Assembly (NCBI GenBank): GCA_003223295.1
Contig: QHYM01000106.1
Span: 1 to 63,865 of the forward strand
Source: Acidobacteriota bacterium
GTDB lineage: Bacteria; Acidobacteriota; Terriglobia; Acidiferrales; UBA7541
DNA length: 63,865 bases
Direction: 5' to 3'
Part shown: one piece after another, positions 13,331-21,041 of the stretch
How the letters are laid out: the number at the start of each line of letters is the position of its first letter
How positions within the stretch are numbered: position 1 is the first letter of the stretch
Program-made: the position numbers and the translations under genes
The notes under the pieces: model-generated
The model's database searches: none
Seen by the model: the letters and a program-made list of their open reading frames with translations, nothing else
What the model was told of the DNA's origin: nothing

Positions 13331-13507
13331 CTTCCTTTGTCCTTAACTGCGTTTAAGAGATAGAAACGTTCTCTCGCGCTGCTCCGTCCAATCCTAGGGA
13401 TGAAATCTTGCACTTGGAAAGGCTGTGCTGCATACTCGCGGCGCGTTTTGGCTCCAGCAAATTTATATGCGCGGAAACTTGATTCACATAAAGTTCAGGG
13501 CGTCTTT

Positions 13508-14890
13508 ATGAAACGGTGGAAATTCCGGCACCGTTTTACACTGCTTCTGTGCGCCCTCATATTCTTTCTTTTGGCACCGGATGGGTCTGCGAATCCGCAG
13601 CAATTATCGCAGGACAACACACCGCAGCCTTCCGCACAGCTTCCTCCTCGCCACGAGATTCCGCCGCTTGTCACTGGCACTCCCGAGCAAACAAGAACCG
13701 AGCAGTACACTCTCTCTCATGAGCGATACGAAAAAGCGGTGGCGTACTCTCGCGCGGGCTACACGCTCTATTTTCTCTCGTACATTCTAGGCGGCATTTT
13801 CCTTTTTTTGATCTTGCGGCTAGGGATCGCGGCGCGCCTTCGAGACATCGCCGAAGGCGCCAGCCAAAAGCGCTGGATGCAAGGATTGGTCTTTGTTCCT
13901 TTGTTTCTATTGCTGGTCGACGTGCTGGATCTTCCCGTGCGGTTGTATTGGCACCGGCTTTCGCTGCATTACGAGCAGTCCGTGCAGGGATGGGGCTCCT
14001 GGTTCTGGGATTGGACCAAGGGAGAGTTGGTGAGCATGGTTATCGGAATCGTTTTCGTGCTGATCTTGTTCGCGGTTATGCGGTTCAGCCCGCGAAGGTG
14101 GTGGCTCCTTTTCTGGTTTCCCGCGGTCCTGATATTGCTCGTCCTCGTTGTGATAATGCCCCTGGTGATTGATCCGCTGTTTAACAAATTCGAGCCGCTC
14201 AGCAGTCAGCATCCCGATTTAGTCGCCTCGATTGGGAAACTAACTCAGCGTGCGGGAGTCCCGATTCCCCCGGAACGCATGTTCCTTGAGCTGGCCAGCA
14301 AGAAAACGAATGCCATCAACGCCTACGTGACCGGCTTGGGCGCCTCGAAGCGCGTAGTGATTTGGGATACGCTGATTCAAAAGACCTCCAATGACGAAAC
14401 ACTCTTCGTAGTCGGGCATGAACTCGGCCACTATGTCTTGGGGCATGTGGTGAAGGGCTTCCTGGCGGGAGCGGCAGCACTCCTGGTGGCGCTCTATCTA
14501 CTGTTTCGCGGATTGCATTGGGCGCTCGACCGGTGGGGCCGCGAGTGGAAAATTCTTGGCGCAGAGGACTGGGCGTCTCTTGCCGTGCTTCTGTTGCTCC
14601 TGCAGGTCTTGCTGTTTTTCTCTTCGCCGGCGATTAATTGGTTTACCCGCACGCAGGAACACGCCGCCGACGTGTACGGATTGGAGATTACTCACGGCTT
14701 GATCCCGAATTCGTCGGAAGTGGCCGCTCACGCCTTTCAGGCGCTCGGCGAGTTGGACTTGTCCGATCCGAATCCGCCGCAGTTCATTACCTTCTGGCTG
14801 TACTCGCATCCGCCGGTGGCCGAGCGCCTGGTGTTTGCCCATACCTACGACCCGTGGTCCAAGGGAGAGAAGCCCAAGTACGTCAAGTGA
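13508..14890 (+). CDS. M48-family membrane metallopeptidase (Ste24/HtpX-like)
   Basis: About 460 residues. A signal-like first hydrophobic segment (FTLLLCALIFFLLAPDG) is followed by several transmembrane helices, the zinc site VVGHELGHYVLGH (HELGH His near residue 304) and the downstream third ligand region EHAADVYGLE. The layout, with paired membrane segments before HExxH, fits the Ste24-type CAAX protease/M48 family, which degrades or trims membrane proteins. I chose ATG 13508 so the hydrophobic segment is N-terminal; an in-frame ATG at 13400 would add 36 atypical residues. It stands alone. Substrate unknown. Confidence 0.9.
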   Translation: MKRWKFRHRFTLLLCALIFFLLAPDGSANPQQLSQDNTPQPSAQLPPRHEIPPLVTGTPEQTRTEQYTLSHERYEKAVAYSRAGYTLYFLSYILGGIFLFLILRLGIAARLRDIAEGASQKRWMQGLVFVPLFLLLVDVLDLPVRLYWHRLSLHYEQSVQGWGSWFWDWTKGELVSMVIGIVFVLILFAVMRFSPRRWWLLFWFPAVLILLVLVVIMPLVIDPLFNKFEPLSSQHPDLVASIGKLTQRAGVPIPPERMFLELASKKTNAINAYVTGLGASKRVVIWDTLIQKTSNDETLFVVGHELGHYVLGHVVKGFLAGAAALLVALYLLFRGLHWALDRWGREWKILGAEDWASLAVLLLLLQVLLFFSSPAINWFTRTQEHAADVYGLEITHGLIPNSSEVAAHAFQALGELDLSDPNPPQFITFWLYSHPPVAERLVFAHTYDPWSKGEKPKYVK

Positions 14891-15620: not shown

Positions 15621-16364
15621 TTGGTGCGCTGCGGAGGAATTACGGCTCCCGCGTCCAATAACTCGCTAGTCGTAGTGGAGCTGTTCACTTCGGAAGGCTG
15701 CTCGAGCTGCCCTCCCGCAGACGCCCTCCTGGCGAAGTTTGCTGAGCATAGCCCCGTCGGCAATGCCCAGGTGGTCGCACTGGAGGAGCACGTCGACTAT
15801 TGGGACGAGCAGGGCTGGAAGGATCCCTTTTCCTCACACAACTGGACGGCCCGGCAATACGCGTACGCAGGCGTGCTCGGGAACGGCAACCCCTATACGC
15901 CGCAAATGGTCGTGGATGGGAGCGTGGAGTTTTCCGGCGGCCGGGCACAACAGGCACTACAGTCGATTACCCAGGCGGCGACACGGGCAAAGGCGCTAGT
16001 GACCTTGACACAAGAAGCCCCAGGCAAGCCTGGCACGGAGAACTTCTCGGTGCAGGTCGACCAACTCACTCCGTCCGGAAAAGGCGGCGCTGCTGAAGTG
16101 TGGCTGGCCATCACGGAAACGGGATTGCATTCCTCGGTGACGCGCGGCGAAAACGCCGGGCATGAATTGCGCCACGCAGCCATCGTTCGTTCCATGCGCA
16201 AGATTGGCGAAGCCAAACCCGGTCGTGACATCTCCTTTACTGCGGAGACGGCCATGCCTCTCAAGAGTGATTGGAAACGAGAGAATTTGAAGGCCGTTGC
16301 CTTTGTTCAAGAGAAAAACAGCCTGCGGATTCTCGGAGCAGCAGAAATCTCGCTTCATCCGTAG
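15621..16364 (+). CDS. DUF1223 thioredoxin-like protein
   Basis: About 247 residues with the DUF1223 hallmark VVVELFTSEGCSSCPPADALLAKF, a CSSC redox-type motif on a thioredoxin-like fold, and YAYAGVLGNGNPYTPQMVVDG downstream. Family members are usually exported, but here a stop (TAG 15618) lies immediately upstream and only TTG/GTG starts are available. No signal peptide is seen, so the N-terminus may be lost, frameshifted or use a non-standard start near the GGAGGA at 15632. The role (redox or metal-related) is not established for the family. Confidence 0.8.
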   Translation: MVRCGGITAPASNNSLVVVELFTSEGCSSCPPADALLAKFAEHSPVGNAQVVALEEHVDYWDEQGWKDPFSSHNWTARQYAYAGVLGNGNPYTPQMVVDGSVEFSGGRAQQALQSITQAATRAKALVTLTQEAPGKPGTENFSVQVDQLTPSGKGGAAEVWLAITETGLHSSVTRGENAGHELRHAAIVRSMRKIGEAKPGRDISFTAETAMPLKSDWKRENLKAVAFVQEKNSLRILGAAEISLHP

Positions 16365-16522
16365 TCCGACGAGAAAGGACTTCCTTCTTGCAAGAAATCG
16401 GTCAGGAATCTCGCGCCTAAGATAGAATCGGACTGCGCTTGAGCGTGACGCGGCTCCAGGTGTGTTGCTTGCTGCCGAAATCGCAGCGCACACCGGTTAG
16501 CAATCAGGTCCGAGGTTCCCCT

Positions 16523-17464
16523 TTGGCGACTGAATCGTCTTCCGAAGCCTCTTCGAGTCCTGCCTTTCAAGCCCCGCCGCCCGAGGGGCTGGCAACCAGG
16601 ATTTTCCTTGGCCCCGACGGATTGCGTGCCGGCTGGAGCCTGCTGCTTTACACCGCTTTCTGGTTGATGCTCGATATTGCCTTGCAGCTTTTTGCCGGGA
16701 AAGTCTTCGGGGTCGAGGAAGAGCCATATTGGCCCCAGTATGTCGCTCCCTCTGCTCTAATTGAATTTGCCTCGGCGTACGCTGCCGCCGTCATGATGGC
16801 ATACCTCGAGCGACGTTCCGTTAACGTTTATGGGCTACCGGCGCGCCAAGCCTTCGGGAAATCCTTCTGGCGGGGCATGCTTCTCGGCATCGGAGAGGTA
16901 AGCTTGCTGGTCGGGTTGATTGCGGCGTTTGGCGGATATTCTTTCGGAAAGTTAGACCTACACGGCGGCAGCCTTCTAAGTTGGGGGATATATTGGGTCG
17001 TGGCCTTCGCGTTTGTCGGGCTGTCTGAGGAATTCCTGTTTCGTGGATACGCACAATACACCTTGGCGCGGGGCATTGGATTCTGGCCTGCCGCCGTATG
17101 TCTCTCTCTCGTATTTGGGGCCGGTCACCTTGCAAACCACGGCGAAAGCATGGTCGGAGCGGCCAACGTAACAGTTACCGGGCTGGTCTTTGCCTTTGCC
17201 CTCAAGCGAACTGGAAACCTCTGGCTGGCCGTGGGGTGGCACGCCAGCTTTGACTTCGGCGAAACCTTCCTTTTTTCCGTTCCCGACAGCGGCCTTGTGT
17301 TTGACCGCCATCTCTCGAGCGCTGCTTTGCACGGGCCGAATTGGTTGACGGGCGGAACGGTTGGGCCGGAAGGAAGCGTATTCAGTTTCTTGACCATGGG
17401 AATCTCCGCCCTGGTGATTCATTTTCTTTTCCCCGCGAAGAAGAGAGGCGACCTGGCAGGCTAG
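16523..17464 (+). CDS. CPBP-family intramembrane metalloprotease
   Basis: Multi-pass membrane protein of about 313 residues with the CPBP/Abi (type II CAAX prenyl protease-like) signatures: SEEFLFRGY (the E-E-x3-R motif), VFGAGH and GWHASFDFGE. In this family glutamates and histidines bind the catalytic metal within the membrane. The start is uncertain: TTG 16523 has GAGG about 7 nt upstream, while TTG 16439 would add 28 residues with no ribosome site. The N-terminus before the first helix is Ser/Pro-rich. The gene's 3' end overlaps the convergent deacetylase by 4 bp. Substrate unknown. Confidence 0.87.
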   Translation: MATESSSEASSSPAFQAPPPEGLATRIFLGPDGLRAGWSLLLYTAFWLMLDIALQLFAGKVFGVEEEPYWPQYVAPSALIEFASAYAAAVMMAYLERRSVNVYGLPARQAFGKSFWRGMLLGIGEVSLLVGLIAAFGGYSFGKLDLHGGSLLSWGIYWVVAFAFVGLSEEFLFRGYAQYTLARGIGFWPAAVCLSLVFGAGHLANHGESMVGAANVTVTGLVFAFALKRTGNLWLAVGWHASFDFGETFLFSVPDSGLVFDRHLSSAALHGPNWLTGGTVGPEGSVFSFLTMGISALVIHFLFPAKKRGDLAG

Positions 17465-18615
17465 TGGACGAGTTCCGAAGCAAATGTCAGCCGCACTCCT
17501 TCAGACTGCGCCTGGGGAAGGACCTCGCGCAACGCCTGAAGGGTAGCCGGATGCGGATGGCCGATGGCCACGGCTTCCCCTTTTTCGCGCGCACCGCGCA
17601 AGGCCAATTCGAGCTGCTTGCGCACCGCGCCAACCTCCGCGACGTCATCGAGAAAAGGAACATTGCGAAACGCCGAGGGAACGCGCGCAGTTTGAGCCGT
17701 TTCGTAGGCCACAGTCGCCGCCGTTGTGCGGCTGTCAATGTAAAAGAGATGATGGTGGCGCAGCACCGGCATCAACTCCTGCATCAAAGCCGGATCGGAA
17801 GTGGCTTCCGAGCCCTGATGATTGTTGACGCCCACAGCGCCGGGAATGTCCGCCAGAAAATGATTCACGAGTTTTGACACCTCCGCCGCAGGCATGCCGG
17901 CACGCAATTCCTGAGCCTCCGGTTTTTCCGTGGACACAGCCTGCATGGGAAGATGCAGCATGACCTGGTAGCCGCGGCGCTGCGCTTCCTGGGCAATCTC
18001 ATCGGAGTGTTCATGATTTGGCAAAACGGAAATGGTGAGCGGATACGGCAGGTCGAAGATCTGATCTGCGGCGTGGCGGTCACTGCCGAGATCGTCCAAG
18101 ATAATGGCGAGTCTCGCTCCATTCTGTTGAAGGGCGGTGTTTCCAGTTTCCGCCGCGCCTATGTGCATGCGCACCGCGTGCGTGCGCGTGCCAGCCTTCA
18201 AATAAAAAAAGAGAATGCCTTCACGGCCCTCCGAGGACTCTTCAGTGAGTCCGTGCCGTGTAGCCACGCCCGCCAAAGCTCGCTGGATTTTCGCGGCTTC
18301 AGATTTCGCCGCGGCATCGGGCTGGGTCTTTGGCAGCGTAATATCGAGACTGTCCATGGCCCCGGGGTTTTTATCCGCTGCTTGCAGGCCGATGTGGATT
18401 TGCGTCCCCGCTGGAGCTGCGGCATGAGCTGCCCCGGCTAGTTCTCTCGTGACGGCATGAACCATTGCAGGAGTTAGATGTCCTGATTCTGTTTTCTTGC
18501 AACCGGCTGCCGTCCAAAACAATGCGCTCAGAAGAATAGGGAGAACGAGACGGAACGCGCCGCGATTCCGGCCAGACGGGAACGCTCGCTTCGCAGCGGC
18601 TTGAGGCTGGCTCAC
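17461..18615 (-). CDS. Divergent polysaccharide deacetylase lipoprotein (YibQ-like)
   Basis: 384 residues starting at GTG 18615, 7 bp after the S41 gene, so in one operon. An N-terminal hydrophobic segment ends in a lipobox-like TAAGC (Cys about 39), suggesting a lipoprotein. The C-terminal half (about 165-380) is the divergent polysaccharide deacetylase domain: RLAIILDDLGSDRHAADQI, YPLTISVLPNHEHS, GYQVMLHLPMQA, GVNNHQGSEATSD and VAIGHPHPATLQAL. The family has the polysaccharide-deacetylase barrel fold with altered metal ligands, and its exact reaction is unsettled. The ctpA-yibQ neighbourhood recurs in other bacteria and suggests an envelope function. Confidence 0.88.
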   Translation of the reverse strand: MSQPQAAAKRAFPSGRNRGAFRLVLPILLSALFWTAAGCKKTESGHLTPAMVHAVTRELAGAAHAAAPAGTQIHIGLQAADKNPGAMDSLDITLPKTQPDAAAKSEAAKIQRALAGVATRHGLTEESSEGREGILFFYLKAGTRTHAVRMHIGAAETGNTALQQNGARLAIILDDLGSDRHAADQIFDLPYPLTISVLPNHEHSDEIAQEAQRRGYQVMLHLPMQAVSTEKPEAQELRAGMPAAEVSKLVNHFLADIPGAVGVNNHQGSEATSDPALMQELMPVLRHHHLFYIDSRTTAATVAYETAQTARVPSAFRNVPFLDDVAEVGAVRKQLELALRGAREKGEAVAIGHPHPATLQALREVLPQAQSEGVRLTFASELVH

Positions 18616-18622
18616 CCTGATC

Positions 18623-19861
18623 CTAAGCAGCCTTTTTCGCGGGGGTTTTCAGCAGGTCGAGCGCGCGGTGGAAGATCGGATCTTCCGGAGAGAGCGGGCG
18701 TGGTCCCTGCCCGGGTTCCTTCCGTGCTTCCGGTGCGGGGGCCGCGTCGTCCCCCGAGTCCGAGTCGTCCTGGGCGTCGGCGCGCACAATCTCCGTGGGC
18801 GTAACGCCTTCTTCCAGGATGGGTTTTCCGTTTGCGTTGTAATAATTCGCGACGGTGAGGATCAGCGCCGCGCCATCATCCAGAGTAATCAGCTTCTGCT
18901 CGGAAGCCAGGCCAAAGGTGCGCTCGCCAACCACATCGCCGCGGTGATTGGCTTCCATCGCAGCCGCGAGAACTTCCGCCGCGCCCGAAGTCGTGGTGTC
19001 CACAAGCACGGAGACGGGGTTTTTCCAGATGACCTGCTTGGGCTCAGCGGAGATGACTTGCGCCGAGACGCTTTGCCCCCGCAAAGTGGTCAGTGTTCCC
19101 GTCGGAATGAAAAAGCGCGCGAGGGAAATCGCCTCGGAAACCGGTCCACGGCCACATTGGCGGAAGTCCAAAATCACCTTGTGAATCCCCTGTTTTTCCG
19201 CATCCACCAGGCGATTGCGCACTTCCTCGGCGCGCCCGGCGTCCAGCGACGGGAAGCGCAGCACGAGAATATCCGGGTCGGCTTTCTGAACGATCAATTT
19301 CGGGGTGGTGAGTTTATCGCGGACAATATCCACTTCTTCGGGCGTGGCCTTGCCGCGGCGAATCACGGAGACCTTGATTCCTGTGCCGGGCTGGCCGTTC
19401 AAAAGATTCAGAGCCTGGCCCACGGACATGTCGCGCGTGGTGAATCCGCCAATCGATTCCAATAGGTCGCCACTGCGAATCCCGGCTTTGGTACCGGGGC
19501 TATCCGGCAGGACCGACAAAACGATAATGTAGCCGTAGCGCTTGCTGAGTGTGAGGCCGGCATCCCCGGTGCCCGGATTGCCGATCTTCTTTTTGTATTC
19601 CTCGTACTCGCGCGGCGTCAGGTAGCTGGACTGCGGATCAAGCGACTCGAGCAGTCCGTGGAGCGCGCCCGCAGTCACCGTACGCATGTTCGGGTCGTCC
19701 ACATAATCCTGCTGAATCTTCTGCAACACTTCCCCGTAGACGGTCAGCGACTTGTAGGCCTTATCGTCCGCACCCCTGCCGAGGAGGACATGGCCTATCC
19801 CCGCAAAACAAAAGATCAATACCGATACGGAAAAAATGCCGACGCGTGACGCTCGATTCAT
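18623..19861 (-). CDS. S41-family C-terminal processing protease homologue, catalytic residues missing
   Basis: 412 residues: N-terminal signal anchor (about 8-28), short helical region, PDZ domain (about 100-170, LPDSPGTKAGIRSGDLLESIGG) and S41 core (about 195-345). In active CtpA/Prc proteins the nucleophilic Ser sits in S-A-S-E and the Lys, 25 residues on, in FGKG. Here the aligned motifs read SGAAE (Gly 293 at the Ser position, Ser 292 next to it) and TFGLAS (Leu 318 at the Lys position). DFRQCGRGP likewise replaces the usual DLRxNPGG. Fold and PDZ seem intact, so a non-proteolytic scaffold is likely. It heads a two-gene operon with the deacetylase. Confidence 0.88.
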   Translation of the reverse strand: MNRASRVGIFSVSVLIFCFAGIGHVLLGRGADDKAYKSLTVYGEVLQKIQQDYVDDPNMRTVTAGALHGLLESLDPQSSYLTPREYEEYKKKIGNPGTGDAGLTLSKRYGYIIVLSVLPDSPGTKAGIRSGDLLESIGGFTTRDMSVGQALNLLNGQPGTGIKVSVIRRGKATPEEVDIVRDKLTTPKLIVQKADPDILVLRFPSLDAGRAEEVRNRLVDAEKQGIHKVILDFRQCGRGPVSEAISLARFFIPTGTLTTLRGQSVSAQVISAEPKQVIWKNPVSVLVDTTTSGAAEVLAAAMEANHRGDVVGERTFGLASEQKLITLDDGAALILTVANYYNANGKPILEEGVTPTEIVRADAQDDSDSGDDAAPAPEARKEPGQGPRPLSPEDPIFHRALDLLKTPAKKAA

Positions 19862-20123: not shown

Positions 20124-21041
20124 ATGTTCCAAACAACGATAACCAGAGAGTCGTGCGCGGAGGGTGTGGGTCTGCACACCGGCGTGCACGGCTGTGTGCG
20201 CCTGGTTCCCGCTCCGGCCGAAACCGGCATTGTTTTTCGTCGCGTAGATCTGGACAACTTCCCGATTGAAGCTCAGGGCCACAACGTCGCCCGCGTCAGC
20301 TATGCCACCAGCCTGATGAAGCAGGGCGTTCTGCTGTCAACCACGGAGCATCTCCTCGCAGCGATCTATTCCTGCGGCATCGACAACATCTACATCGACA
20401 TCAACTCCATCGAAGTGCCCATCCTGGATGGCTCCGCCGAACCGTTCATGCAGATGCTGGAGCACTCCGGCGTGCGCAAGCTGCGCCGCAAGCGCCGTTA
20501 TCTGAAGGTGCTCAAGCCGCTGGAGGTCAGCGAAGGCGATCGCCGCATCGGCATCTATCCCGCGGACGAGTTTCGCGTCCGCTGCTACGTGGATTTCCCA
20601 CATCCCCTGGTTGGGCAGCAGGAAGTGGAAATGGCAGTCGGACCGGACACTTTCCGCCATCTGCTGGCGCGCGCCCGCACCTTTTGCTTTGACCGCGACA
20701 TTACGCCTCTCCGCGCTATGGGCCTGATCCGCGGTGGGTCGCTCGAAAACGCTATCGTCCTCACCCAGGACGGCATCATGAACGGCCCCCTGCGCTTCCC
20801 AGACGAGTTTGGCCGCCACAAAGCCTTGGACCTGATTGGCGACCTGGCCCTGGCGGGCCTGCCGCTGCTGGCGCGTGTCGAGGCACATAAGGCAGGCCAT
20901 TCCCTGCATACGCAACTCGTCAGCCAACTGCTCGCCGACCCCTCCCTTTGGACCATCACCACAGGCGAAGCCATCCACGCCAAGGAAGAAGAGGCCTACC
21001 AGAGCGTCCTCTCCCCTGTTCCGGCCGCCCCCGGCGATTAG
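20124..21041 (+). CDS. lpxC: UDP-3-O-acyl-N-acetylglucosamine deacetylase
   Basis: 305-residue zinc amidase for the committed step of lipid A synthesis, removing acetate from UDP-3-O-acyl-GlcNAc in the cytosol. Visible motifs are GVGLHTG, STTEHLLAA (zinc His 76), GRHKALDLIGDLAL (zinc His 232 and Asp 236) and HKAGHSLH (catalytic His about 259). Length is usual for the family and the protein is complete. ATG 20124 follows GGAGGGG. glmU lies 70 bp downstream, so lipid A and peptidoglycan/UDP-GlcNAc precursors are made from the same locus. It indicates an LPS-bearing outer membrane. Confidence 0.97.
   Translation: MFQTTITRESCAEGVGLHTGVHGCVRLVPAPAETGIVFRRVDLDNFPIEAQGHNVARVSYATSLMKQGVLLSTTEHLLAAIYSCGIDNIYIDINSIEVPILDGSAEPFMQMLEHSGVRKLRRKRRYLKVLKPLEVSEGDRRIGIYPADEFRVRCYVDFPHPLVGQQEVEMAVGPDTFRHLLARARTFCFDRDITPLRAMGLIRGGSLENAIVLTQDGIMNGPLRFPDEFGRHKALDLIGDLALAGLPLLARVEAHKAGHSLHTQLVSQLLADPSLWTITTGEAIHAKEEEAYQSVLSPVPAAPGD

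Follow-up and report, generated by a model that had tools for sequence, protein, structure and literature searches.

The CTP fold, the envC-ctpA-yibQ operon type and the idea of a pseudoprotease are already known, and the literature that we searched treats CtpA of the envC-ctpA-yibQ context only as a protease. H. pylori CtpA (HpCtpA) uses an S300/K325/Q329 triad, as implied by the PDB title of a triple mutant, and excerpts of PMC12749690 and PMC3808539 describe a PDZ arginine (HpCtpA Arg162, B. subtilis CtpB Arg168) that senses the substrate C-terminus. The excerpt of PMC3808539 adds that the PDZ domain of CtpB binds C-termini with Ala or Val as the last residue. In the dimer of P. aeruginosa CtpA (PaCtpA) only one subunit is activated (PMC11021448, in excerpt), and SddA deacetylates denuded glycan and is a substrate of Prc (PMC11870482, in excerpt). 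BipP, a predicted inactive M16 homologue, is cited as a negative regulator of Prc via NlpI in the excerpt of PMC12569750.

Here, a soil bacterium of the Acidobacteriota is the source of an envelope-type S41/CtpA homologue without the cutting residues. The gene lies in a stretch of 63,865 nucleotides, referred to as the window, and has the following parts (residue numbers are those of the encoded protein).

18623 to 19861, minus strand: S41/CtpA-type pseudoprotease gene, 412 aa, stop codon included (open reading frame and Pfam)
19784 to 19855, minus strand: N-terminal hydrophobic helix, residues 3–26 (model helix and hydrophobic sequence)
19304 to 19570, minus strand: PDZ domain, residues 98–186 (Pfam PDZ_6/PDZ_2; structural match to CTP PDZ domains)
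19397 to 19399, minus strand: Asn155 codon, at the substrate-sensor Arg of many catalytic CTPs (alignment)
18791 to 19294, minus strand: S41 core domain, residues 190–357 (PF03572 at 198–357; start set by eye)
19148 to 19150, minus strand: Arg238 codon, at the first Gly of the GG motif of catalytic CTPs (alignment)
18983 to 18985, minus strand: Gly293 codon (GGC), in place of the nucleophile Ser (alignments)
18908 to 18910, minus strand: Leu318 codon (CTG), in place of the general-base Lys (alignments)
18896 to 18898, minus strand: Gln322 codon, third residue of the Ser-Lys-Gln triad, kept (alignments)

The 412-residue protein matches Pfam Peptidase_S41 (E 3e-31), and the PDZ domain claimed in the initial annotation is present, both by Pfam and by structural match to CTP PDZ domains. 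Its best NCBIfam score is to 'prc' (TIGR00225), at 201.7 bits, under the model cut-off of 218.6. The initial annotation had described an S41 homologue without either catalytic residue; alignment to the H. pylori and P. aeruginosa CtpA structures confirms this: Gly293 takes the place of the nucleophile and Leu318, 25 residues further on, that of the Lys. The triad Gln is retained, and Arg238 occupies the first Gly of the GG motif, which we take to be the oxyanion side. Our reading of the alignment puts Asn155 in the sensor Arg column of HpCtpA and CtpB, and the sequence GTGDAG stands at the hinge site of HpCtpA (Phe105), so that the hinge Phe is absent. Of the features of catalytic S41A CTPs, the window protein thus has the Gln and lacks Ser and Lys, the first GG Gly and the PDZ sensor, and its residues predict that it is unable to cleave peptides via the CTP mechanism. 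The N-terminal helix is probably a membrane anchor or signal anchor.

The Gly/Leu pair (positions 293/318, a notation used throughout) is present in 31 of 31 readable same-genus orthologues, the window included, with one further row truncated. An orthologue match was obtained in 33 of 36 genus genomes, some as fragments only, and none in the other 3. One window-genus genome holds a second, distant family copy (locus L053, G035:C3; G/D, 39–41% identity), which may represent transfer or MAG contamination.

An AlphaFold2 model of the window protein (mean pLDDT 81.7, pTM 0.74) finds its closest structure in HpCtpA (9ku0_D; Z 35.2, RMSD 4.2, 329 residues), with PaCtpA at Z 33.7 (8sxe_B; RMSD 8.6, 344 residues); chains of HpCtpA, PaCtpA, CtpB and D1 protease all score Z 30.5 or more. 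The ranges aligned to HpCtpA and PaCtpA extend to the C-terminus of the model, and the counterpart of the trans-interacting loop falls within its low-confidence residues 352–384. As modelled, the CTP fold is kept, with N-terminal helices, PDZ domain, S41 core and C-terminal helix, which places the protein in the S41/CtpA fold family. Median dN/dS across 15 genus sequences came to 0.063 over the full length (104 of 105 pairs), with 0.058 in the PDZ domain (103 pairs) and 0.059 in the S41 core (104 pairs). The lowest value among the stretches tested, 0.029, belongs to residues 285–330 (78 of 105 pairs), compared with 0.088 for residues 358–404 (83 pairs) and 0.040 for residues 398–412 (80 pairs). 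These figures are rough, since the median dS of 1.44 approaches saturation and only pairs with a defined dS were used; to that accuracy they point to strong purifying selection on the pseudoprotease gene. Loss of catalytic residues together with purifying selection and retention across species, as expected of a conserved pseudoprotease, is found here.

The initial annotation had asked how widely the substitution occurs in Acidobacteria. We aligned 235 rows, outgroups included, of which the family rows comprise 208 without the dyad, 8 with Ser and Lys (S/K) and 1 unreadable. The dyad is accordingly missing from 208 of the 216 readable family rows, a biased census, because rows were gathered by searches seeded with mostly dead sequences; only exact duplicates were dropped, in the first batch only, and some genomes are counted twice. 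Gly stands at position 293 in 189 of the 217 family rows, and position 318 is variable, with Leu, Asp, Glu, Arg, Val and other residues. Of the dyad-less rows, 29 of 208 have the first GG-motif Gly, against 8 of 8 dyad-keeping and 18 of 18 CTP rows (L068, L270 and L287 being scored with the 18 CTP rows), and the triad Gln persists in 182 of the 208 dyad-less rows. Only 12 of the 18 CTP rows have the sensor Arg, which makes it a softer CTP criterion; among family rows it occurs in 38 of the 208 without the dyad and in 1 of the 8 with it. At the hinge (five columns around HpCtpA Phe105), Phe or Tyr occurs in 17 of 18 CTP rows, 4 of 208 dyad-less rows and none of the 8 dyad-keeping rows. With sensor Arg and hinge aromatic mostly gone, the whole family, its S/K members included, departs from the known CTP activation switch.

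Dyad loss was seen in relatives from most of the sampled branches of Acidobacteriota. By name, the close relatives of the window are Acidobacteria 'gp2' and Candidatus Acidiferrum MAGs, judged from the 80 kept out of 531 confirmed relatives. A record titled Betaproteobacteria (L137, CAJCHZ010000021.1), with 70% identity to the window protein and lpxC-S41-yibQ order, is probably a mislabelled MAG. A 28-row profile matches 250 of 250 class genomes, 240 of them at the level of the short family (E 1.5e-95 or better, read from the match table); frames over 500 aa match it at about 1e-84 and weaker. The profile search gave no strong family match in 10 of the 250, among which G044 is rated 100% complete and G102 has a copy interrupted by a masked stretch. 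In a phylum-wide draw, 297 of 297 genomes match, with best matches that run from short-family members through to long paralogues.

The Acidobacteriota CtpA homologues of about 400 aa form a single clade (support 100/100, IQ-TREE, dyad columns removed), separate from the long paralogues and from the CTPs of Alphaproteobacteria, P. aeruginosa, H. pylori and Firmicutes. This clade comprises 65 rows in one tree and 57 in another with more early-branching members; in the latter a short Acidobacteriota S41 protein with S/K (L287) falls outside the family, with Firmicutes CTPs. A first quick tree had placed the long-branch L068 inside the family, and later trees exclude L068 and L270. The 65-row-clade tree also excluded L269, L288–L292, L294–L298 and rows sharing more than 56% identity with a retained row; the 57-row-clade tree restored L269, L287–L292 and L294–L296 (L288, L290 and L295 being long branches) and dropped 16 others.

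Two lineages within the family retain the complete catalytic set, and both nest inside it: f9 in the window's class and f35 among other classes. The f9 rows (L059, L060, L096, L098 and L103) keep S/K/Q and the first GG Gly, with the PDZ sensor pair absent. In f35, three rows are S/K (L253, L271 and L272), one is G/K (L273) and one G/R (L293), forming a natural series for testing catalysis loss, with the dyad intact, half lost and fully lost. All five f35 rows end in KKAA or KAAA and have an envC-like gene upstream; a yibQ-like gene lies downstream in 4 of 5 and was not found in the L253 locus. Three f10 rows (L050, L052 and L297) keep the Ser (SAS) and the PDZ Arg with Lys changed to Ile; going by these residues, they appear to be an intermediate state.

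A single loss of the dyad, in which all dyad-less rows form one clade, is rejected by the AU test (log-likelihood 269.96 lower, p-AU 4.8e-57), for a grouping chosen after viewing the tree. Since these rows do not form one clade, either catalysis disappeared on several occasions or it disappeared and later returned. The fewest changes on the tree are 3 for the dyad, 5 for Ser and 3 for Lys; counted as losses only, and depending on how weak branches are collapsed, they become 4 to 8, 9 to 15 and 4 to 7. We prefer retention in f9 and f35 with putative parallel loss elsewhere, because Ser, Lys, Gln and the first GG Gly are kept together in these rows and f35 has G/K and G/R neighbours. Codon usage counts against parallel loss: Ser is TCN in the 8 f9, f10 and f35 rows with codons printed, and Gly is GGN, so that each such Ser-to-Gly change takes two steps and would need to recur frequently. 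Catalysis may instead have been regained in the dyad-keeping rows. Recombination of the catalytic segment from the long paralogue into f9 was considered by eye only, and the flanks look like those of dead relatives.

The gene is flanked in the window by two others of note.

17461 to 18615, minus strand: yibQ/sddA-like divergent polysaccharide deacetylase gene (PF04748, E 3.5e-71)
20124 to 21041, plus strand: lpxC, divergent neighbour on the upstream side (Pfam; conserved in genus loci)

The yibQ-like reading frame starts 7 bp past the S41 stop codon, and the two genes are probably co-transcribed. The coupling to a deacetylase-like gene and the likeness to ctpA-yibQ neighbourhoods proposed in the initial annotation hold on both counts, as in early-branching lineages the gene sits between envC-like and yibQ/sddA-like genes, in the manner of envC-ctpA-yibQ operons. 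Metal ligands D174, D175, H221 and H266 of the window deacetylase are intact, and the four SddA ligands (DDHH) are kept in 104 of 105 YibQ rows, the exception being a partial match at outgroup locus L264; to judge by these residues the partner deacetylase looks intact and the protease looks dead. Genus loci repeat the order lpxC (divergent), S41, yibQ, Rce1-like. Genes for CAAX-type membrane proteases, M48 and Rce1-like, lie near the S41-yibQ pair (window 13400–14890 and 16439–17464), the Rce1-like gene repeatedly adjoining yibQ in genus loci, and a DUF1223 protein gene is at 15621–16364.

A same-strand yibQ gene lies within 1.5 kb downstream in 101 of 273 family loci, a count that includes many genus members and some loci repeating a genome. 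The linkage extends to f1, f2, f6, f10, f35 and a number of early-branching lineages, but the retrieved loci of the class families f3, f4, f5, f7, f8, f9, f11, f12 and f13, and those of some f1 genomes, showed no yibQ next to the gene. Strict partnership with SddA is therefore not universal. On the other side, no envC-type M23 gene was met directly upstream in the window, where the divergent lpxC sits, and a search of the same genome for EnvC gave M23-domain matches only and no full-length match. A profile of seven M23 genes that immediately precede the S41 gene in f35 and in early-branching lineages (all seven with a Pfam M23 match) matches the same-strand upstream gene in 27 family loci, and also matches upstream of alphaproteobacterial and Firmicutes CTPs (5 plasmid-record loci). 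The name EnvC-like refers to the M23 match and to a long N-terminal part that looks coiled coil by eye. Given the linkage to envC and yibQ, the family is most simply the Acidobacteriota copy of the envC-ctpA-yibQ protease.

The protein ends in a short motif that follows a variable linker in the family.

18626 to 18637, minus strand: codons of the C-terminal KKAA (read from the open reading frame)

In a diverse set of 65 family rows, less than 56% identical to one another apart from rows kept deliberately, 40 end in AA and 33 in [K/R]AA; the figures for 192 family rows are 107 and 93. The background, 462 other frames of at least 300 codons picked mechanically in the same loci, gives 3 and 1, and no CTP row ends in AA among 15 with a real C-terminus. 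All 8 dyad-keeping family rows end in AA. Given the Ala- or Val-ended C-termini bound by the CtpB PDZ domain, the family tail is a candidate CTP ligand.

The initial annotation had put forward a scaffold role in envelope maintenance as possible. With purifying selection, phylum-wide retention and, in early-branching relatives, the order envC-S41-yibQ, the most likely reading is that the protein has an envelope role other than catalysis. As a specific form of this, at roughly even probability, we propose from sequence and gene order a membrane-anchored periplasmic pseudoprotease acting as a non-catalytic scaffold or regulator in septal peptidoglycan remodelling with an SddA-like deacetylase. 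The protein would correspond in Acidobacteriota to the CtpA whose gene lies between envC and yibQ/sddA, would oligomerize as CtpA does, and could serve the septal peptidoglycan machinery as a scaffold or regulatory subunit that positions or controls the denuded-glycan deacetylase and, where linked, the EnvC-type amidase activator. Its Ala-Ala tail may be bound or trimmed by a catalytic CTP, for example the paralogues of about 540 aa in the same genome. The inactive PaCtpA subunit and BipP are precedents for such a way of working and not evidence of membership. A bolder version, speculative and rather improbable in our estimation, makes the dead CtpA of the envC-ctpA-sddA operon an AA-tailed bait for CTPs that sets the turnover of deacetylase and amidase activator, its active-site loop kept as an interaction surface while catalysis was lost independently in many lineages.

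Different roles can be drawn from the same observations. The protein might be a decoy or regulatory subunit of the catalytic CtpA paralogues for all envelope substrates, with the yibQ linkage a leftover, a reading that we consider unlikely though a serious contender. The two best-scoring S41 matches of its own genome, both frames of about 540 aa, keep S/K (five further S41 matches, L004–L008, gave no match to the family profile), the [K/R]AA tail is far above background, and both C-terminus binding by the CtpB PDZ domain and BipP offer parallels; against this, identity to the long paralogues is about 26–28%, which leaves mixed oligomers unsure, and the AA ends of the 8 dyad-keeping rows mean that the tail is not specific to dead members. 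It seems less probable still, a minor possibility, that the protein is a general periplasmic PDZ holdase or chaperone unlinked to the cell-separation machinery. The gene does stay in many class families where linkage to yibQ or envC was not found, but the PDZ residues that grip substrate are mostly lost (the sensor Arg and hinge aromatic counts given above), and the early-branching gene order points to a division module.

That cleavage persists through other residues, such as Thr291 or Ser292 with Lys323, is very improbable. Position 291 is Ser or Thr in 207 of 208 dyad-less rows and Lys323 is present in 155, but 291 is Ser or Thr in 18 of 18 CTP rows as well, so it is probably structural and not a new nucleophile; Ser292, with a second Lys the alternative named in the initial annotation, occurs in 65 of 208 rows, Lys323 is absent in 53, and the first GG Gly is lost in 179. 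No alternative Ser-Lys dyad is conserved among the 208 rows, and on these counts a Ser292/Thr291 plus Lys323 pair was rejected. A decaying gene or an assembly artefact can be practically dismissed: the window does come from a draft genome of 481 contigs, but this explanation is refuted by G/L in every readable genus orthologue, by the dN/dS of about 0.06 and by the phylum-wide clade. The scaffold or regulator role thus remains our preferred reading. Fold, often gene order, and the deacetylase metal site are kept and the protease site is lost, which suggests that the CtpA scaffold does something separable from cleavage; f35, with S/K, G/K and G/R together, and f9, with S/K, would permit a direct comparison of catalysis and scaffold.

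No catalytically dead CtpA family in Acidobacteriota was recognized in the titles and abstract starts of the open PMC papers that our searches listed; the excerpt of PMC6411480 gives S41 and Acidobacteria counts and nothing on inactivity. Nor did the literature searched show a phylum-wide, polyphyletic loss of catalysis in an envC-operon CtpA whose tail is often [K/R]AA. S41 annotations may overcount proteases in Acidobacteriota.

Among described proteins, IRBP/RBP3 has an S41-like core without protease function and turned up in our structure comparisons, but is eukaryotic, retinoid-binding and without the PDZ-CTP architecture. BipP, a predicted inactive protease homologue that acts as regulator of a periplasmic CTP system, is a precedent for how the window protein may work, but belongs to an unrelated family and acts through NlpI (PMC12569750, in excerpt). 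B. subtilis CtpB has a like fold and domain order, with the Arg168 sensor and the triad Ser and Lys absent in the window protein. H. pylori CtpA, the best structural match, aligns in its triad columns, of which the Gln is kept and Ser and Lys are replaced, and the equivalents of Phe105 and Arg162 are lost. Compared with P. aeruginosa CtpA (envC-ctpA-PA5135 operon, partner LbcA), the window protein lacks the Ser, the Lys, the first GG Gly, the sensor Arg and the hinge Phe, and envC is not adjacent; the two have the fold and PDZ-S41 order in common, and a yibQ/sddA-type deacetylase gene follows both.
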